NCBI RefSeq assembly: GCF_018130785.1
Contig: NZ_JAFCJT010000034.1
Coordinates: 1-64,000, forward strand
DNA length: 64,000 nt
Origin: Bradyrhizobium liaoningense
GTDB taxonomy: Bacteria; Pseudomonadota; Alphaproteobacteria; Rhizobiales; Xanthobacteraceae
Direction of reading: 5' to 3'
The position numbers were made by a program, and so were the translations under genes. Below the pieces are notes generated by a model. That model ran no database searches, was not told the origin of the DNA, and was given only the letters and a program-made list of their open reading frames with translations. The first letter of the stretch is position 1; every line of letters starts with the position of its first letter. This document shows, piece by piece, positions 53,807 through 58,663 of the stretch.

Positions 53807-55333
53807 TCATGCGGCCTCGCGCGATCCGACGCGCCGTTCAGGCCTCGTCGCGGTCATCGACTGCTCCTCGGCGTCCTGCGGCGCGCCCCAGAACTCCCGC
53901 ACCGTTGGCCCCCATTTCAACCGACGCGCCCGCAGGAATTCCAGGATCTCGTGCGGCCAGACCCTGCGGCCCATCTGCGTGTACCAGCGCATGGCATGAC
54001 GCAATCCCGCGTCACGCTGAAACAGCACCCGCCAGATCGCCTTGGGACGACACTGCAACACCATTTCCGTGAACTTGAACCAGACCAACACCCGCCACGG
54101 CGCCATGTAACGTGTGGCGAGCACCTGATGCTTGTAGTCCCAGCGGCGACGGTCGGGCTGGATCACGCGGCGGTCGGCGGCCAGCCGGAAGTACGGCGTC
54201 CAGCGATGCGGCGTGACGTAGAGCAGCTGAACCTGATCGGGATCGTAGGCAAGCAGCTGCTTCAGGCCATGCCAGTGATCGCGATCGGTCTCCTCCTCGA
54301 ACCCGACCACCCAGGTCGCCATCGACAGGATGCCATGCTGCCGCAGCAGGCGAATGGCCTCGCGGTCGGTCGCGGCGGTCGCGCCCTTGCGGATCAGCTC
54401 CAGCGTCTTCTCGTCGGTGTTCTCAAGCCCGAGCAGGAAGCGCTGCCAGCCGGCCTTCTTGTAGAGATGCAGGATGTCGGCATCGCGCACGATATCGTCG
54501 GCGCGGGTCGAGCCGACCAGGATGAGGTCGACATTCTCGGCGATCAGCGCTTCGAGGAAGGCGCGCCACGCCTTCTTCGACACGGTCGGGTTTTCGTCGG
54601 CGAAGTTGATGACTTTCACGCCGTGCTCGCGGTGCAGGCGCGCTAGCTCCTTGGCGAAGCGAACGGGATCACGATGGCGCCAGCGTGTCCAGAAGCCGCG
54701 CTGGCCGCAATAATTGCACAGATGCGGGCAGCCGCGGGAGAACTGCACGACCACGGCACGCAGGCCGCCCCAATAGCTGTAGCGCGCGTGATCAATCAAT
54801 TCCCATCCGACGCGGTAGGCATCGAGGTCCGCGATGACGGGCGCCGGCGGCGTCGCGCGGGGGCCGGTGGCATCGCGAAACGCGATGCCGGCGATGCCGC
54901 CGAGATCGTGGCCATATTCCAGCGCGCGCATCAGGCGGCGCGCGGTCTCCTCGCCTTCGCCGCGCACGATCGCGCTGACATAGGGTTCATCACGCAGGAT
55001 GTCGCGCCAGTGATAGGTCGGAAAGACGCCGCCATAGACGACCAGTATGCGCGGCCTGGCCTTGACCAGGGCCTGCGCAATCTCCGCGATGACGGGATGT
55101 CCGGAGGTCGAGCCGGAATGGCCGAACAGCACGGCGTCCGGCGCGAAGCGGTTCGCCTGGCTGATGATTTCCGCGATCGGCATCGGGCCGAACTCGGCAT
55201 CGATCAGCCGCACGGTATGACCGTCGTCGATCAGCGGACCGCCGATCGCGAGCAGGCCGAGTGGCGGCAGATGATCGTCGGGGATCCTGCTGCCGATCGA
55301 GGGATGAGGCACGTTGACGAGAAGAACACGCAT
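53807..55333 (-). CDS. BchE-like B12-binding radical SAM protein (anaerobic Mg-protoporphyrin ester cyclase family)
   Basis: Protein of 508 residues. The N-terminal cobalamin-binding region reads SRIPDDHLPPLGLLAIGGPL and LIDAEFGPM, which is the wording I know from BchE. The radical SAM cluster motif is SRGCPHLCNYCGQ (C-x3-C-x2-C) near residue 205. The C-terminal domain ends WYTQMGRRVWPHEILEFL, also as in BchE. BchE makes the isocyclic ring of bacteriochlorophyll without oxygen. No other bch or crt gene lies in the window, so the real substrate may be another tetrapyrrole or something unrelated. It follows the isoprenyl transferase by 130 bases on the same strand. Confidence 0.82.
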   Translation of the reverse strand: MRVLLVNVPHPSIGSRIPDDHLPPLGLLAIGGPLIDDGHTVRLIDAEFGPMPIAEIISQANRFAPDAVLFGHSGSTSGHPVIAEIAQALVKARPRILVVYGGVFPTYHWRDILRDEPYVSAIVRGEGEETARRLMRALEYGHDLGGIAGIAFRDATGPRATPPAPVIADLDAYRVGWELIDHARYSYWGGLRAVVVQFSRGCPHLCNYCGQRGFWTRWRHRDPVRFAKELARLHREHGVKVINFADENPTVSKKAWRAFLEALIAENVDLILVGSTRADDIVRDADILHLYKKAGWQRFLLGLENTDEKTLELIRKGATAATDREAIRLLRQHGILSMATWVVGFEEETDRDHWHGLKQLLAYDPDQVQLLYVTPHRWTPYFRLAADRRVIQPDRRRWDYKHQVLATRYMAPWRVLVWFKFTEMVLQCRPKAIWRVLFQRDAGLRHAMRWYTQMGRRVWPHEILEFLRARRLKWGPTVREFWGAPQDAEEQSMTATRPERRVGSREAA

Positions 55334-55463
55334 GGACTTTCGCTCCCGCTTTGGTTGGCGTGATCGTCCGTCCCACTTCTATGAAGAAGCCCAATCCCCC
55401 GACTGAACCCGAAGACATCGCACGTGACTGCCGCGGAGACTCTTGCTCTGCTCCGCCTCGGCA

Positions 55464-56204
55464 TCACGCGCGGGAAAGTGAAGGCACCTCCTCCGGCATG
55501 ATGGCCTGGAGGCCGCCGAAGCGACGCTCACGGCCATGGAAGGAGGCTAGGGCCGCGGCGAGATCGCCCGAATCGAATTCAGGCCACATCCGCTCGGTGA
55601 AGTGCAGCTCGGCATAGGCGCCTTCCCAGAGCAGGAAGTCCGACAACCGCTTCTCGCCGGAGGTGCGGATGATGAGATCGACGTCGCGAAGGCCGGCCTC
55701 GCCGGTGACGAGCTGCGAGAAGGCTTCGCGGGTGAGGCTCGTCAGCGCCGCCGCCTTCGCTGCGGCGTTGAGGATGGCGTCGCGCGCGGAATAGTCGACC
55801 GCGATGCGCAGGTGCAGCGTGCTGCCCTGCGCGGTGGCGTCTTCCGCGCGCGCGATCGCATTGGCGATGCCGTCGGGCAGACGGTCGCGACGGCCGATCA
55901 CGGTGAGACGCACGCCGTTCCTGGCGAGGCTCTGCACCTCGTTGGCGAGATAGAAGCGCAGCAATGTCATCAGCGCGGCGACTTCGGTTTTCGGCCTGCG
56001 CCAATTGTCGGTGGAGAAGGCGTAGAGTGTCAGCGTCCCGATACCCTGCTTGGGCGCGGCCTCGACGATGCGCCGGATGGCCTCGACCCCGGCCTCGTGG
56101 CCGCGCACGCGCGACAGGCCGCGGCGCGTCGCCCACCGCCCGTTGCCGTCCATGATGATGCCGACGTGAAGCTTCTCGTTGCGAGAGGTCATGTCACTTT
56201 GCAT
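55464..56204 (-). CDS. Isoprenyl transferase (undecaprenyl diphosphate synthase family)
   Basis: Cis-prenyltransferase of 246 residues. Motifs are VGIIMDGNGRWA (catalytic Asp), GHEAGVEAIRRIV, LTLYAFSTDNWRRP, DLIIRTSGEKRLSDFLLW and YAELHFTERMWPEF. All catalytic residues are in place. The usual uppS lies in the frr-cdsA-dxr cluster, whereas this gene sits behind a regulator and a membrane protein, so it is probably a second copy with a special role. The ATG at 56204 is preceded by GGAGA and is itself the centre of a 17-bp palindrome. Confidence 0.92.
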   Translation of the reverse strand: MQSDMTSRNEKLHVGIIMDGNGRWATRRGLSRVRGHEAGVEAIRRIVEAAPKQGIGTLTLYAFSTDNWRRPKTEVAALMTLLRFYLANEVQSLARNGVRLTVIGRRDRLPDGIANAIARAEDATAQGSTLHLRIAVDYSARDAILNAAAKAAALTSLTREAFSQLVTGEAGLRDVDLIIRTSGEKRLSDFLLWEGAYAELHFTERMWPEFDSGDLAAALASFHGRERRFGGLQAIMPEEVPSLSRA

Positions 56205-56212
56205 TGCAAAGT
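56196..56212. promoter_or_regulatory. Operator palindrome ACTTTGCATTGCAAAGT over the isoprenyl transferase start
   Basis: A perfect 17-bp palindrome whose middle is the isoprenyl transferase start codon. A near-identical word lies at 57266-57282 ahead of the membrane protein gene. The likely binder is the winged-helix regulator encoded between the two sites. Confidence 0.65.
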
Positions 56213-56232
56213 CTCCAGTCAAAAAAGGGGGA

Positions 56233-56607
56233 TCAGGTCGAGACGATACCGAGACGGCCAAGCGGCGGCGCCTCGCGGCCAGCGGCCTTGGCAGCGTCGC
56301 GCACCAGCCGCTCGAGCACGGCGAGATAGTCGAGGAAGCGGCGGCGGCCGGCCCTGGTCAAGCGGCAGGTGGTGTGCGGGCGGTTGCCCTCATAGCCTTT
56401 GGTCACCTCGACGAGGCCGGCCTCCTGCAGCACCGCGAGATGCCGGCTGAGATTGCCGTCGGTGAGGCCGCAGAGCTGCTTGAGGTCGGCGAACGCCAGG
56501 CCCTTCGGATGCGCCATCAGCGAGGTCAAAAGCCCGAGCCTCGCCTTCTCGTGGATGACGCGGTCGAGCCCTTCATAGGAAAAGGGTGCGCTGTCAGTCT
56601 TCGACAT
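56233..56607 (-). CDS. Winged-helix transcriptional regulator (MarR/ArsR-like, single domain)
   Basis: DNA-binding protein of 124 residues. The core RLGLLTSLMAHPKGLAF, LKQLCGLTDGNLSRHLAVLQEAGLVEVTKG is a winged helix of the type with the LTDGNLSRHL recognition helix, followed by a wing with RPHTTCRLTRAGRRRF. There is no obvious sensor domain, so a small ligand or the membrane partner may control it. GGAG is six bases ahead of the second ATG (56607). Its start overlaps the end of the membrane protein gene by 14 bases, and the isoprenyl transferase follows 28 bases later. Confidence 0.85.
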   Translation of the reverse strand: MSKTDSAPFSYEGLDRVIHEKARLGLLTSLMAHPKGLAFADLKQLCGLTDGNLSRHLAVLQEAGLVEVTKGYEGNRPHTTCRLTRAGRRRFLDYLAVLERLVRDAAKAAGREAPPLGRLGIVST

Positions 56608-57211
56608 CATGGTCTCCGGACGCGAAATACAGAATGCCCGCCATCACCGACTGCCCGATCACGAAGGGCAGTCCCATGGTCCATGGCGACAGCGTGCGGG
56701 TTTGGCTCGCGAGCACCACGACCGCGAAGCCGGAAATAAAATACCAGGCGCCGGCGAGCGCGACGGTGCGCGGCAGCGAGCGGACGGAAGCAAAGATGCC
56801 GAGCGACACCAGGATCTGCCACAGGCCGGGCAACAGCCACAGCGTCTCGCTCGCGAACTTCCACATCACCACCGCGAGCAGCACGCCGGCGACACCCGCG
56901 GGCAGGAACTGCTCGACCGCCTGATGGATCATGGCGTCGGCCAGGCCCGAGTGATGGCGGCGCGAGCGCGCGCGCATCTCGATGCCGATCATCAGGCCGG
57001 AGAGCACCGCGGCCATTAACCAGCCGAAGAAGAAGGCGAGCGGTTCGCCTGTGGGATCGCCGAGCAGCCAGAATTGGAGGATTGCGGTGAGAAGCGCGAC
57101 AGCACCCGTCGCAGCTATCGTCGCCGGACCATAGCCGCGGAACGCCGTGCCCGCCGCGATCTGGTTGCGGATCGCCACGATGTCGGCCAGTGCCTTGTCG
57201 AGATCGCGCAT
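56594..57211 (-). CDS. Integral membrane protein, co-transcribed with the winged-helix regulator
   Basis: Membrane protein of 205 residues. A cytoplasmic N-terminus (MRDLDKALADIVAIRNQIAAGTAFRG in part) is followed by about six transmembrane helices. I do not know a named family; membrane proteins of this layout are commonly paired with the same type of winged-helix regulator, which suggests a shared job. Helix ends carry MRARSRRHHSG, a strongly basic loop. The start is the ATG at 57211. The operator at 57266-57282 lies 55 bases ahead. Confidence 0.75.
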   Translation of the reverse strand: MRDLDKALADIVAIRNQIAAGTAFRGYGPATIAATGAVALLTAILQFWLLGDPTGEPLAFFFGWLMAAVLSGLMIGIEMRARSRRHHSGLADAMIHQAVEQFLPAGVAGVLLAVVMWKFASETLWLLPGLWQILVSLGIFASVRSLPRTVALAGAWYFISGFAVVVLASQTRTLSPWTMGLPFVIGQSVMAGILYFASGDHDVED

Positions 57212-57265
57212 TGGCAACGCCAAAACCCCGCTCCGCCCCCATTGCCCGGGACTGCCCGGGCCGTC

Positions 57266-57282
57266 ACTTTGTACTGCAAAGT
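57266..57282. promoter_or_regulatory. Operator palindrome ACTTTGTACTGCAAAGT upstream of the membrane protein gene
   Basis: Matches the palindrome at 56196-56212 at 15 of 17 positions. A further half site (CGCAAAGTA) lies nearby at 57292-57300. The position, 55 bases ahead of the start, fits repression of the membrane protein, regulator and downstream genes by the winged-helix protein. Confidence 0.65.
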
Positions 57283-57412
57283 ATATCGCACCGCAAAGTA
57301 AAGGCAAGCCCGGACGTCGCCGCGAGGAGATCCGATTCGAACAAACAACTGTCGGTTGCGCCGCGCATCCTCCCGCGGATATGATGGGTCCAAAAGCGTT
57401 ATGGGGGATGGT

Positions 57413-58663
57413 ATGCGGCTTAAGTCGTTTGTCGTTGCGTCGCTTTTGCAGGTGAGTGTCGCCGGAGCAGCCCATGCGGCGGGGCCGTTCGGCTCCGTCA
57501 ATGTCGGCAACTGGATCGGTGGCGCATTCACCAACGACGAGACCGGTGCGTTCTCCCATTGTGCCGCGACGACCCCTTACGCCAACGGCGTGATTCTCGT
57601 CGTCGGCCAGAATGCTGCGGGCTCATGGATATTGAGCTTTGCGAGCCCCAGCTACCGCTTCAAACAGGGCGAGAACGCCGCGATCGACGTCATCTTTGAC
57701 GGACAGGAGCAGGCCAGGCTGTTTGCCACGGCCAATCAGCCGAACATGCTCTCATCCGTCATGCCCGCCAACGTCGTGCGAACGTTTCAGAAGGCAAGCC
57801 TGATGGTCGCGACGAGCGGCCGCACCGTCCTGAATTTCGACCTGACCTCGACCGGGCCCGTGATTGCGGCGCTGGCCAATTGCGTCACCAAGGTGAAAGC
57901 CGACGGGCTGAGCAAGGCTGGTGACTTCACAAAGGGCGCAGCAAGGCCCGCAGCCACGGCAGACAAGCAAGGCACGCCTCCCGCGGCCAAACCGGGGCGC
58001 ACCGGAAGCTTCAGCGGCACCGGCTTCGTGGTCAGCCCCAACGGACACATCGTCACCAACAACCATGTGATCAATGGTTGCGTCGGCGACATCAAGGGCA
58101 ACCTCACCGGTGAGGCCGCGGCGGTGCTGCGCGTCGTTTCGACCGACGCCACCAATGATCTCGCTTTGCTTCAGGCACCGTCGACGACGACATTCAAGGA
58201 TTTTGCCCGTATCCGCGACCGCTCGTTCCGCTCGGGCGATTCCGTCGTCGCGATCGGCTTTCCCTACCACGGCTTGCTCACCTCGGACTTCACCGTGACG
58301 ACCGGTATCGTGAGCTCGCTCAGCGGCATGCGCAACGACACGCGTTTCCTGCAAATCAGTGCCCCCGTGCAGCCCGGCAATAGCGGCGGCCCGCTATTCG
58401 ACACCACCGGCCAGATCGTGGGCGTGGTCACCGCAAAGCTCCCCGGATTGCGTATCGCCGCTGCCACCGGCAACATTCCAGAGAACATCAACTTCGCCAT
58501 CAAGACCGGGGCGCTGCGCGACTTCCTCGATAATTCCGTGGTGCCCTACCAGACTGCGGAACCGAAGGGCGAGCTCAAGACCACCGACATCGCCGGCAAC
58601 GCGCGCGCCTACACGATGCTGATCTCGTGCATCGGGACGGAGCAGGCGGACGCGAAGCGGTAG
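57413..58663 (+). CDS. Trypsin-like serine protease (S1C), periplasmic
   Basis: Secreted protease of 416 residues. The signal peptide ends at AAHAAG. An N-terminal domain of about 170 residues of unknown kind is followed by a Pro/Ala/Lys linker and the protease domain, with the triad His in TNNHVI, Asp in TNDLALL and Ser in QPGNSGGPLFD. There is no PDZ domain, unlike DegP/HtrA, so the N-terminal domain probably guides activity. The start ATG at 57413 has GGGGGA ahead; 57401 is an alternative. Divergent from the membrane protein gene, so the operator at 57266 could also act on it. Confidence 0.9.
   Translation: MRLKSFVVASLLQVSVAGAAHAAGPFGSVNVGNWIGGAFTNDETGAFSHCAATTPYANGVILVVGQNAAGSWILSFASPSYRFKQGENAAIDVIFDGQEQARLFATANQPNMLSSVMPANVVRTFQKASLMVATSGRTVLNFDLTSTGPVIAALANCVTKVKADGLSKAGDFTKGAARPAATADKQGTPPAAKPGRTGSFSGTGFVVSPNGHIVTNNHVINGCVGDIKGNLTGEAAAVLRVVSTDATNDLALLQAPSTTTFKDFARIRDRSFRSGDSVVAIGFPYHGLLTSDFTVTTGIVSSLSGMRNDTRFLQISAPVQPGNSGGPLFDTTGQIVGVVTAKLPGLRIAAATGNIPENINFAIKTGALRDFLDNSVVPYQTAEPKGELKTTDIAGNARAYTMLISCIGTEQADAKR

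Follow-up and report, generated by a model that had tools for sequence, protein, structure and literature searches.

UppS makes the lipid carrier used for all envelope polymers, and a single UppS-type match was found in nearly all of the genomes that we searched. Why does Bradyrhizobium liaoningense hold a second gene of this type, here called uppS2, beside a small winged-helix regulator and a membrane protein, with a palindrome lying exactly on its start codon? We addressed this for a stretch of 64,000 nucleotides (positions 1 to 64,000 of contig NZ_JAFCJT010000034.1, assembly GCF_018130785.1), referred to below as the window. The analysis points to an autoregulated operon, in which a winged-helix repressor and a membrane partner would control a second undecaprenyl-type diphosphate synthase through two operators, with a BchE-like gene as an optional addition; we put the probability of this reading at about 0.63. 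The locus consists of four consecutive open reading frames on the minus strand and two palindromes:

57266..57282, no strand assigned: operator 1, palindrome ACTTTGTACTGCAAAGT, at the predicted promoter of the membrane-protein gene (pattern search and conservation)
56594..57211, minus strand: membrane protein of 205 amino acids, with a predicted N-terminal helix and six long helices, of no known family
56233..56610, minus strand: winged-helix regulator, HTH_34 (PF13601), 125 amino acids
56196..56212, no strand assigned: operator 2, palindrome ACTTTGCAATGCAAAGT in the minus-strand reading, centred on the uppS2 start codon (pattern search and conservation)
55464..56204, minus strand: uppS2, a cis-prenyltransferase of the NF011412/PRK14839 subfamily, 246 amino acids
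53807..55333, minus strand: BchE-like, B12-binding radical-SAM protein of 508 amino acids, the optional fourth gene

A preliminary description of this DNA had reported the run of four minus-strand genes, and the same palindrome both ahead of the membrane-protein gene and over the isoprenyl transferase start. The coordinates of the open reading frames and their Pfam and NCBIfam matches bear out the gene run, in which the regulator gene overlaps the preceding membrane-protein gene by 17 bases. Both palindrome positions were recovered as well: the 17-base-pair (bp) word ACTTTGYANTRCAAAGT is exact at 56196-56212 and 57266-57282, and the window contains no further match to it with up to three mismatches (0.12 expected). 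A slightly relaxed pattern, ACTTTGNANTNCAAAGT, is exact at these two sites only when all 8,301,925 bases of the genome are searched, and the genome-wide search that had been proposed for the word yielded no good third site. Allowing up to two mismatches added two sites, each with one damaged half; the reversed control pattern gave 5 per strand. We rejected chance as the origin of the palindromes on the strength of this genome-wide rarity, the reversed control and the density of sites across related loci, described below.

How widely is the arrangement shared? When the genome collection was scanned with the regulator, 127 loci were found, and the best 80 of them (near loci) come mostly from records titled Bradyrhizobium. 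In all of these best 80 of 127, the membrane protein, the regulator and uppS2 stand in one order, and the regulator gene adjoins the membrane-protein gene in 80/80 near loci and in 25/25 more distant (far) loci. One contig (that of L064) begins inside the membrane-protein gene and holds the end of that gene only; its operator 1 row is misplaced. Among Rhizobiales, the membrane-protein profile matched 31 of 347 genomes, spread over 13 genera and 12 families. The uppS2 subfamily was present in the same 31 genomes, adjoining the membrane protein, and scored at least 313 bits in 30 of them (next score, 283 bits); G028 has a partial uppS2 only, which by itself scores like a canonical UppS. A strong class of regulator matches (at least 175 bits; next best, 69 bits) occurred in 25 of 297 genomes, and these were the triad genomes of that sample. 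Three genomes of the window's own genus (G171, G194 and G216) were without the membrane protein and had one uppS match each. In a sample of the class, the membrane protein was present in 5 of 337 genomes, three of them outside the order, and in a sample of the phylum, which consists partly of close kin, the 9 positives among 299 genomes were all inside the order and none outside.

The preliminary description would have been refuted had conservation ended with the membrane protein and the regulator. It does not end there: uppS2 accompanies them in the same 31 genomes, and the three genes lie side by side over 12 families. Of the four-gene group first described, this triad stood, but the radical-SAM gene proved optional (8/31 triad genomes; complete in 18/80 near loci). 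A local accident of one strain was rejected on the same data (80 near loci, 31 genomes, 12 families). Judged from sequence, the triad is a genuine operon, conserved over a wide range of genomes and with two predicted operators.

The two palindromes are kept in different families, even where the membrane proteins are only 47-50% identical. Mismatches were counted over the 12 half-site bases of the palindrome. At no more than two mismatches, operator 1 and operator 2 were each found in 79/80 near loci, and in 24/25 and 20/25 far loci, respectively. At no more than one, the near loci held 157 sites in 1,245,373 bases, with two sites in 77 loci, one in 3 and never more than two. The 25 far loci (298,455 bases) held 47 sites at up to two mismatches, only 3 of which lay outside the operator positions. 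The centre of operator 2 is the start codon of uppS2 in 79/79 near and 18/20 far loci that possess this operator. The ATG is invariant in operator 2 of the near loci (80/80), whereas the equivalent positions vary in operator 1. Operator 2 is absent from three far loci (L123, L132 and L136), all of which keep operator 1, and has three mismatches in L130.

Is operator 2 conserved merely for its start codon? L133 keeps the palindrome with ATA at its centre instead of ATG, and L124 keeps it inside uppS2, with the ATG lying upstream. As the palindrome outlives a moved or altered ATG at these two loci, we rejected that explanation. The pattern of substitutions also bears on what the palindromes are. 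In 21 far copies of operator 2, pairs 6-12 (7 A-C) and 1-17 (5 G-T, 5 A-C) were altered on one side, and no two-sided change was seen; in operator 1 the same pairs showed one two-sided change each, apart from one C-A. Because L133 and L124 keep the palindrome and the far operator 2 copies change one side of a pair at a time, a DNA operator is favoured over an RNA hairpin, and the better reading is that both palindromes are DNA operators.

What sets apart the three far loci without operator 2? We scored the best 7 candidates per genome with a UppS profile at E <= 1e-60. Two matches were found in 28 of the 31 triad genomes and one in the other three (G174, G272 and G342), which belong to one genus and are each rated 100% complete. 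In each of these the single match is the uppS2 of the triad, and their loci are exactly the three far loci that lack operator 2. At the two of those loci that were inspected base by base (L102, L103), a Shine-Dalgarno-like GGAGAC and the ATG remain at the former position of operator 2. Operator 2 is retained in three other genomes of the genus (G117, G196 and G218), which have two uppS copies. If the canonical uppS has really been lost from G174, G272 and G342, UppS2 must make the essential carrier there, and erasure of operator 2 would be expected if that site holds uppS2 off. These three genomes, apparently without another UppS, suggest that UppS2 can serve as a carrier synthase.

The signals around the two operators were located as follows:

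57302..57307, minus strand: -35-like element TTGCCT of a predicted promoter (sequence)
57294..57299, minus strand: additional half-site ACTTTG, located 17 bp upstream of operator 1 (sequence)
57280..57285, minus strand: -10-like element TATACT, its last three bases shared with operator 1 (sequence and conservation)
56221..56226, minus strand: T-tract between the regulator gene and uppS2 (sequence)
56213..56216, minus strand: Shine-Dalgarno sequence GGAG of uppS2 (sequence)

The putative promoter is conserved with its operator. A TTG stands 15-18 bp upstream of the -10 element (15-17 bp in the near loci, with a spacer of 16 in 77) in 79/79 near loci with operator 1 and is present in 21/24 far loci with operator 1. 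The -10 element reads TATACT in 69/79 near loci and is more varied in the far loci (TATACT in 6/24, TGTACT in 6/24); the upstream half-site ACTTTG occurs in 64/79 and 9/24, respectively. At operator 2, the uppS2 ATG (56204-56202) is the centre of the palindrome and GGAG lies just 5' of it, and a Shine-Dalgarno-like element is at most 10 bases away in 79/79 near loci with operator 2. T-tracts of at least 5 between the regulator gene and uppS2 are present in 74/79 near and 15/20 far loci. A trypsin/HtrA-like gene (57413-58663) is divergent from the operon, with about 200 bases between them, operator 1 among these.

The regulator matches HTH_34 at 76 bits (cut-off, 27), and its model (predicted local distance difference test score, pLDDT, 82) is a winged helix. 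The top match in both sequence and fold is PH1061 (1UB9), a winged-helix protein that is archaeal. The membrane protein matched no Pfam or NCBIfam family at the default threshold and gave weak, scattered matches at a lax one. Its model (pLDDT 75) has seven helices, and a fold search against solved structures returned nothing significant. UppS2 matches Prenyltransf (PF01255) and NF011412 (430 bits; cut-off, 334), and its catalytic motifs are intact when aligned with E. coli UppS (1JP3). Family and motifs are thus shared with canonical UppS, which lies in a frr-uppS-cdsA arrangement. The genome's own canonical uppS, which had been suggested as something to look for near frr and cdsA, is on contig C12, between genes that we take, by eye from the sequence, to be frr and a cdsA-like gene. 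UppS2 shares 45% identity with that enzyme but is encoded at a different locus, under its own predicted repressor. In an alignment of 69 UppS2 rows, a selection among the available loci, all 69 have D and S (DYS) in place of the N and G of canonical UppS (NYG); two arginines in IGRRDR are likewise fixed, unlike in canonical UppS.

How might such a circuit work? The winged-helix protein would act as a dimer on the two near-identical palindromes. Bound at operator 1 it would cover the -10 element and repress the whole operon. Bound at operator 2, about 1.05 kilobases downstream, it would stop or occlude the incoming RNA polymerase at the start of uppS2, leaving uppS2 tightly off despite a basal level of the first two genes. 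A repressor sitting just past the T-tract would hold the polymerase on that tract, and repression might be strengthened by looping between the two operators. The membrane protein would most likely sense membrane state or an isoprenoid lipid and withdraw the repressor from DNA. On release, UppS2 would be turned on and would draw farnesyl diphosphate into a Z-polyprenyl diphosphate. That the neighbouring winged-helix protein controls uppS2, the central idea of the preliminary description, is strongly supported by conservation (31/347 genomes, both palindromes); its further idea, that a B12 radical-SAM enzyme belongs to the circuit, was half right, as the gene is BchE-like and next to uppS2 but optional.

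We hold a wider proposal tentatively. The membrane protein and the winged-helix repressor could together make up a one-component system, so far undescribed, that senses the state of membrane lipids or isoprenoids. Disturbed sterol-like lipids or isoprenoid flow would then bring in the second cis-prenyltransferase (in some lineages with the BchE-like enzyme) to give extra or altered polyprenyl carrier, and the start-codon operator would have been erased where UppS2 is the sole enzyme.

What is the fourth gene? The radical-SAM protein has B12-binding and Radical_SAM domains and matches TIGR02026 at 538 bits (cut-off, 481). Matches to TIGR02026 fall into two classes, 765-849 bits (39 places) and 406-566 bits (21 places, that of the window included). 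The low-scoring class has the B12-binding and radical-SAM architecture in common with true BchE, the anaerobic Mg-protoporphyrin monomethyl ester cyclase, but is only 31-33% identical to six true BchE proteins and forms a separate clade, set off by a very long, fully supported branch. No Photo_RC (photosynthetic reaction-centre) protein was found in the window's own genome. Given the separate score class and clade, the low identity and the lack of Photo_RC, we rejected the identification as BchE; the gene is, by sequence, a BchE-like paralogue that has been kept with the operon and lost from it. This corrects the BchE label on a radical-SAM family in a non-phototroph. The portion of a paper on BchE available to us (PMC13142503) provided no usable signature. 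The curated cut-off of TIGR02026 admits the large BchE-like class, and automatic annotation may mislabel these proteins as chlorophyll-synthesis cyclases.

The linkage of this gene to uppS2 raises the question of whether the two proteins form one pathway, in which the radical-SAM enzyme would modify the UppS2 product to give a modified polyprenyl lipid. BchE-like genes (E <= 1e-70) are present in 8/31 triad genomes, in 8/8 cases directly after uppS2 and in the same direction, as against 13/316 other genomes (Fisher p 0.00015, uncorrected for kinship), and the triad-linked proteins form one supported clade with one stray (L150). All of this would suit a shared pathway. However, the gene was not found at that threshold in 23/31 triad genomes; among the near loci it is complete in 18/80 and a remnant in 3 (the contig of L049 ends too early to show a full gene), and 13 genomes carry it without the triad, beside unrelated genes. 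We therefore regard a single pathway as doubtful. The neighbours in those 13 genomes were diverse and gave no functional lead (Pfam was run on 38 of 103 neighbours, and 25 of 51 families were viewed), and no palindrome was found at these loci. In one family without the triad (L142, L143, L144, L147 and L148), the BchE-like gene has conserved common neighbours, four of which were named at L144: an AsnC-type regulator, a biopterin-dependent hydroxylase, an amino-acid kinase and an L-PSP-type protein. Remnants of the gene after uppS2 at L024, L035, L061 and L087 are signs of loss within Bradyrhizobium.

Other neighbours of the operon also vary. Among the 80 near loci there is an HtrA-like protease in 57, a DUF899 protein in 55, a cyclic-nucleotide-binding protein in 40, a phosphoesterase in 40 and an acetyltransferase in 25. 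One locus (L054) comes from a record titled Frankia sp. RB7; its regulator is 94% identical to a Bradyrhizobium one and its gene order is the same, which probably means a mistaken title or a contaminated assembly.

Could operator 2 act without any effect of its own on elongation? In the lac system, a repressor tetramer bridges operators. A regulator tetramer bridging operators 1 and 2 by DNA looping would suit their spacing (1025-1247 bp across loci) and the presence of two strong sites with no third in the genome, and the extra half-site upstream of operator 1 suggests a higher-order complex. Looping needs no exact placement on a start codon, yet this is what was seen at nearly every locus with operator 2, and we consider looping alone unlikely.

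Another reading makes the regulator an activator, or has operator 2 mainly start a separate uppS2 promoter. In five loci from other genera (L117, L125, L129, L131 and L134), the T-tract is preceded by a hairpin resembling an intrinsic terminator (z -1.5 to -3.8), directly before the uppS2 ribosome-binding site, and such a hairpin and T-tract in several genera would weaken read-through. However, operator 1 overlaps a -10-like element, as is typical of repression, and operator 2 is lost just where UppS2 is the sole UppS found, the reverse of the pattern expected for an activator site. The stretch from the terminator to the start codon can accommodate no more than the Shine-Dalgarno sequence, and visual inspection showed no -10/-35 pair that could serve uppS2. 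These alternatives thus appear quite improbable. Least probable of all is that operator 2 is an RNA hairpin hiding the uppS2 start codon, with operator 1 alone a DNA site: by inspection the palindrome is able to fold so that the loop contains or adjoins the start codon, and its position coincides exactly with the ribosome-binding region, but the same word covers the -10 element at operator 1, the changes at pairs 6-12 and 1-17 of far operator 2 copies are one-sided with none two-sided, and two far loci keep the palindrome with the start codon moved or changed.

If the autoregulated operon is the right reading, when would it be switched on? One lead comes from RNA sequencing of hopanoid-depleted B. 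diazoefficiens USDA110, where, in the part of the report available to us, the strongest upregulation is that of 'uppS', described as an isoprenyl transferase (PMC11005386). Three of our near loci are titled B. diazoefficiens, from strains other than USDA110. A gene with its own repressor would be the likelier candidate for such extreme induction.

Several points weigh against the proposed circuit or its extension to hopanoids. In the main text of that report, as far as this was available, the induced 'uppS' is given without a locus tag (PMC11005386); it may be either copy, and the triad is unconfirmed in USDA110. The hopanoid gene shc was over its cut-off in 4/11 triad genomes and in 2/11 matched non-triad genomes (with one more below the cut-off). 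As shc passes in only 4/11 triad genomes, hopanoids cannot be the general signal, and a hopanoid-specific role as a general rule is not supported by these 11 matched pairs; if the circuit does answer hopanoid loss, membrane state or isoprenoid flow is more likely to be the general cue. A sensor role for the membrane protein, though the most likely one, is deduced only from how the genes are arranged. That G174, G272 and G342 lack a canonical uppS comes from one search of the best 7 candidates per genome, and as these genomes are of one genus it may reflect one event. In G174, the frr-cdsA cluster was not in the 1,928,619 bases covered of about 5.4 megabases, where the sole UppS-like match was that of the triad. 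Operator 2 is degenerate in L122 too. A broken uppS2, as in G028, could hide in non-triad genomes, among which G161, G242 and G275 have two matches. Finally, the terminator-like hairpin is not general: it is seen clearly in some other genera and is mostly not significant in Bradyrhizobium, where z ranged from +1.3 to -2.6 on folding 14 near loci and fell below -2 in L070 alone.

The data nevertheless suggest that this operon of soil and root-nodule bacteria works as a circuit, not described before, for switching on a spare lipid-carrier enzyme. A conserved private repressor and membrane partner on a second UppS would mean that some Alphaproteobacteria raise or alter a polyprenyl lipid on demand. 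The circuit would also offer a candidate mechanism for the unexplained top gene of the hopanoid-depletion experiment in an agricultural model strain, as described in the available part of that report (PMC11005386).

How does the proposed operon compare with known systems? Our literature searches, which gave mostly unrelated items, turned up neither a description of the operon nor any account of the palindromes being bound by the regulator. One close parallel in form is found in the LytTR regulatory systems, which are operons of a regulator and a membrane partner. As in those systems, a small DNA-binding protein is encoded with an overlapping membrane-protein gene and controls its own promoter, a control that is predicted here. 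In contrast to them, the regulator has an HTH_34 rather than a LytTR domain, the membrane protein belongs to no known family, and the target is a fixed metabolic one. For a block within the transcribed region, the parallel is roadblock repression by CcpA in Bacillus subtilis, where, according to the part of the source available, operators downstream of the start site block elongation (PMC3463425). CcpA, as described there, is a global regulator, whereas the regulator proposed here is dedicated to one operon and its site lies exactly on a start codon inside it. Thus, an autorepressed operon with a membrane partner is of a known kind, while the composition, the target and the predicted start-codon operator appear to be new.

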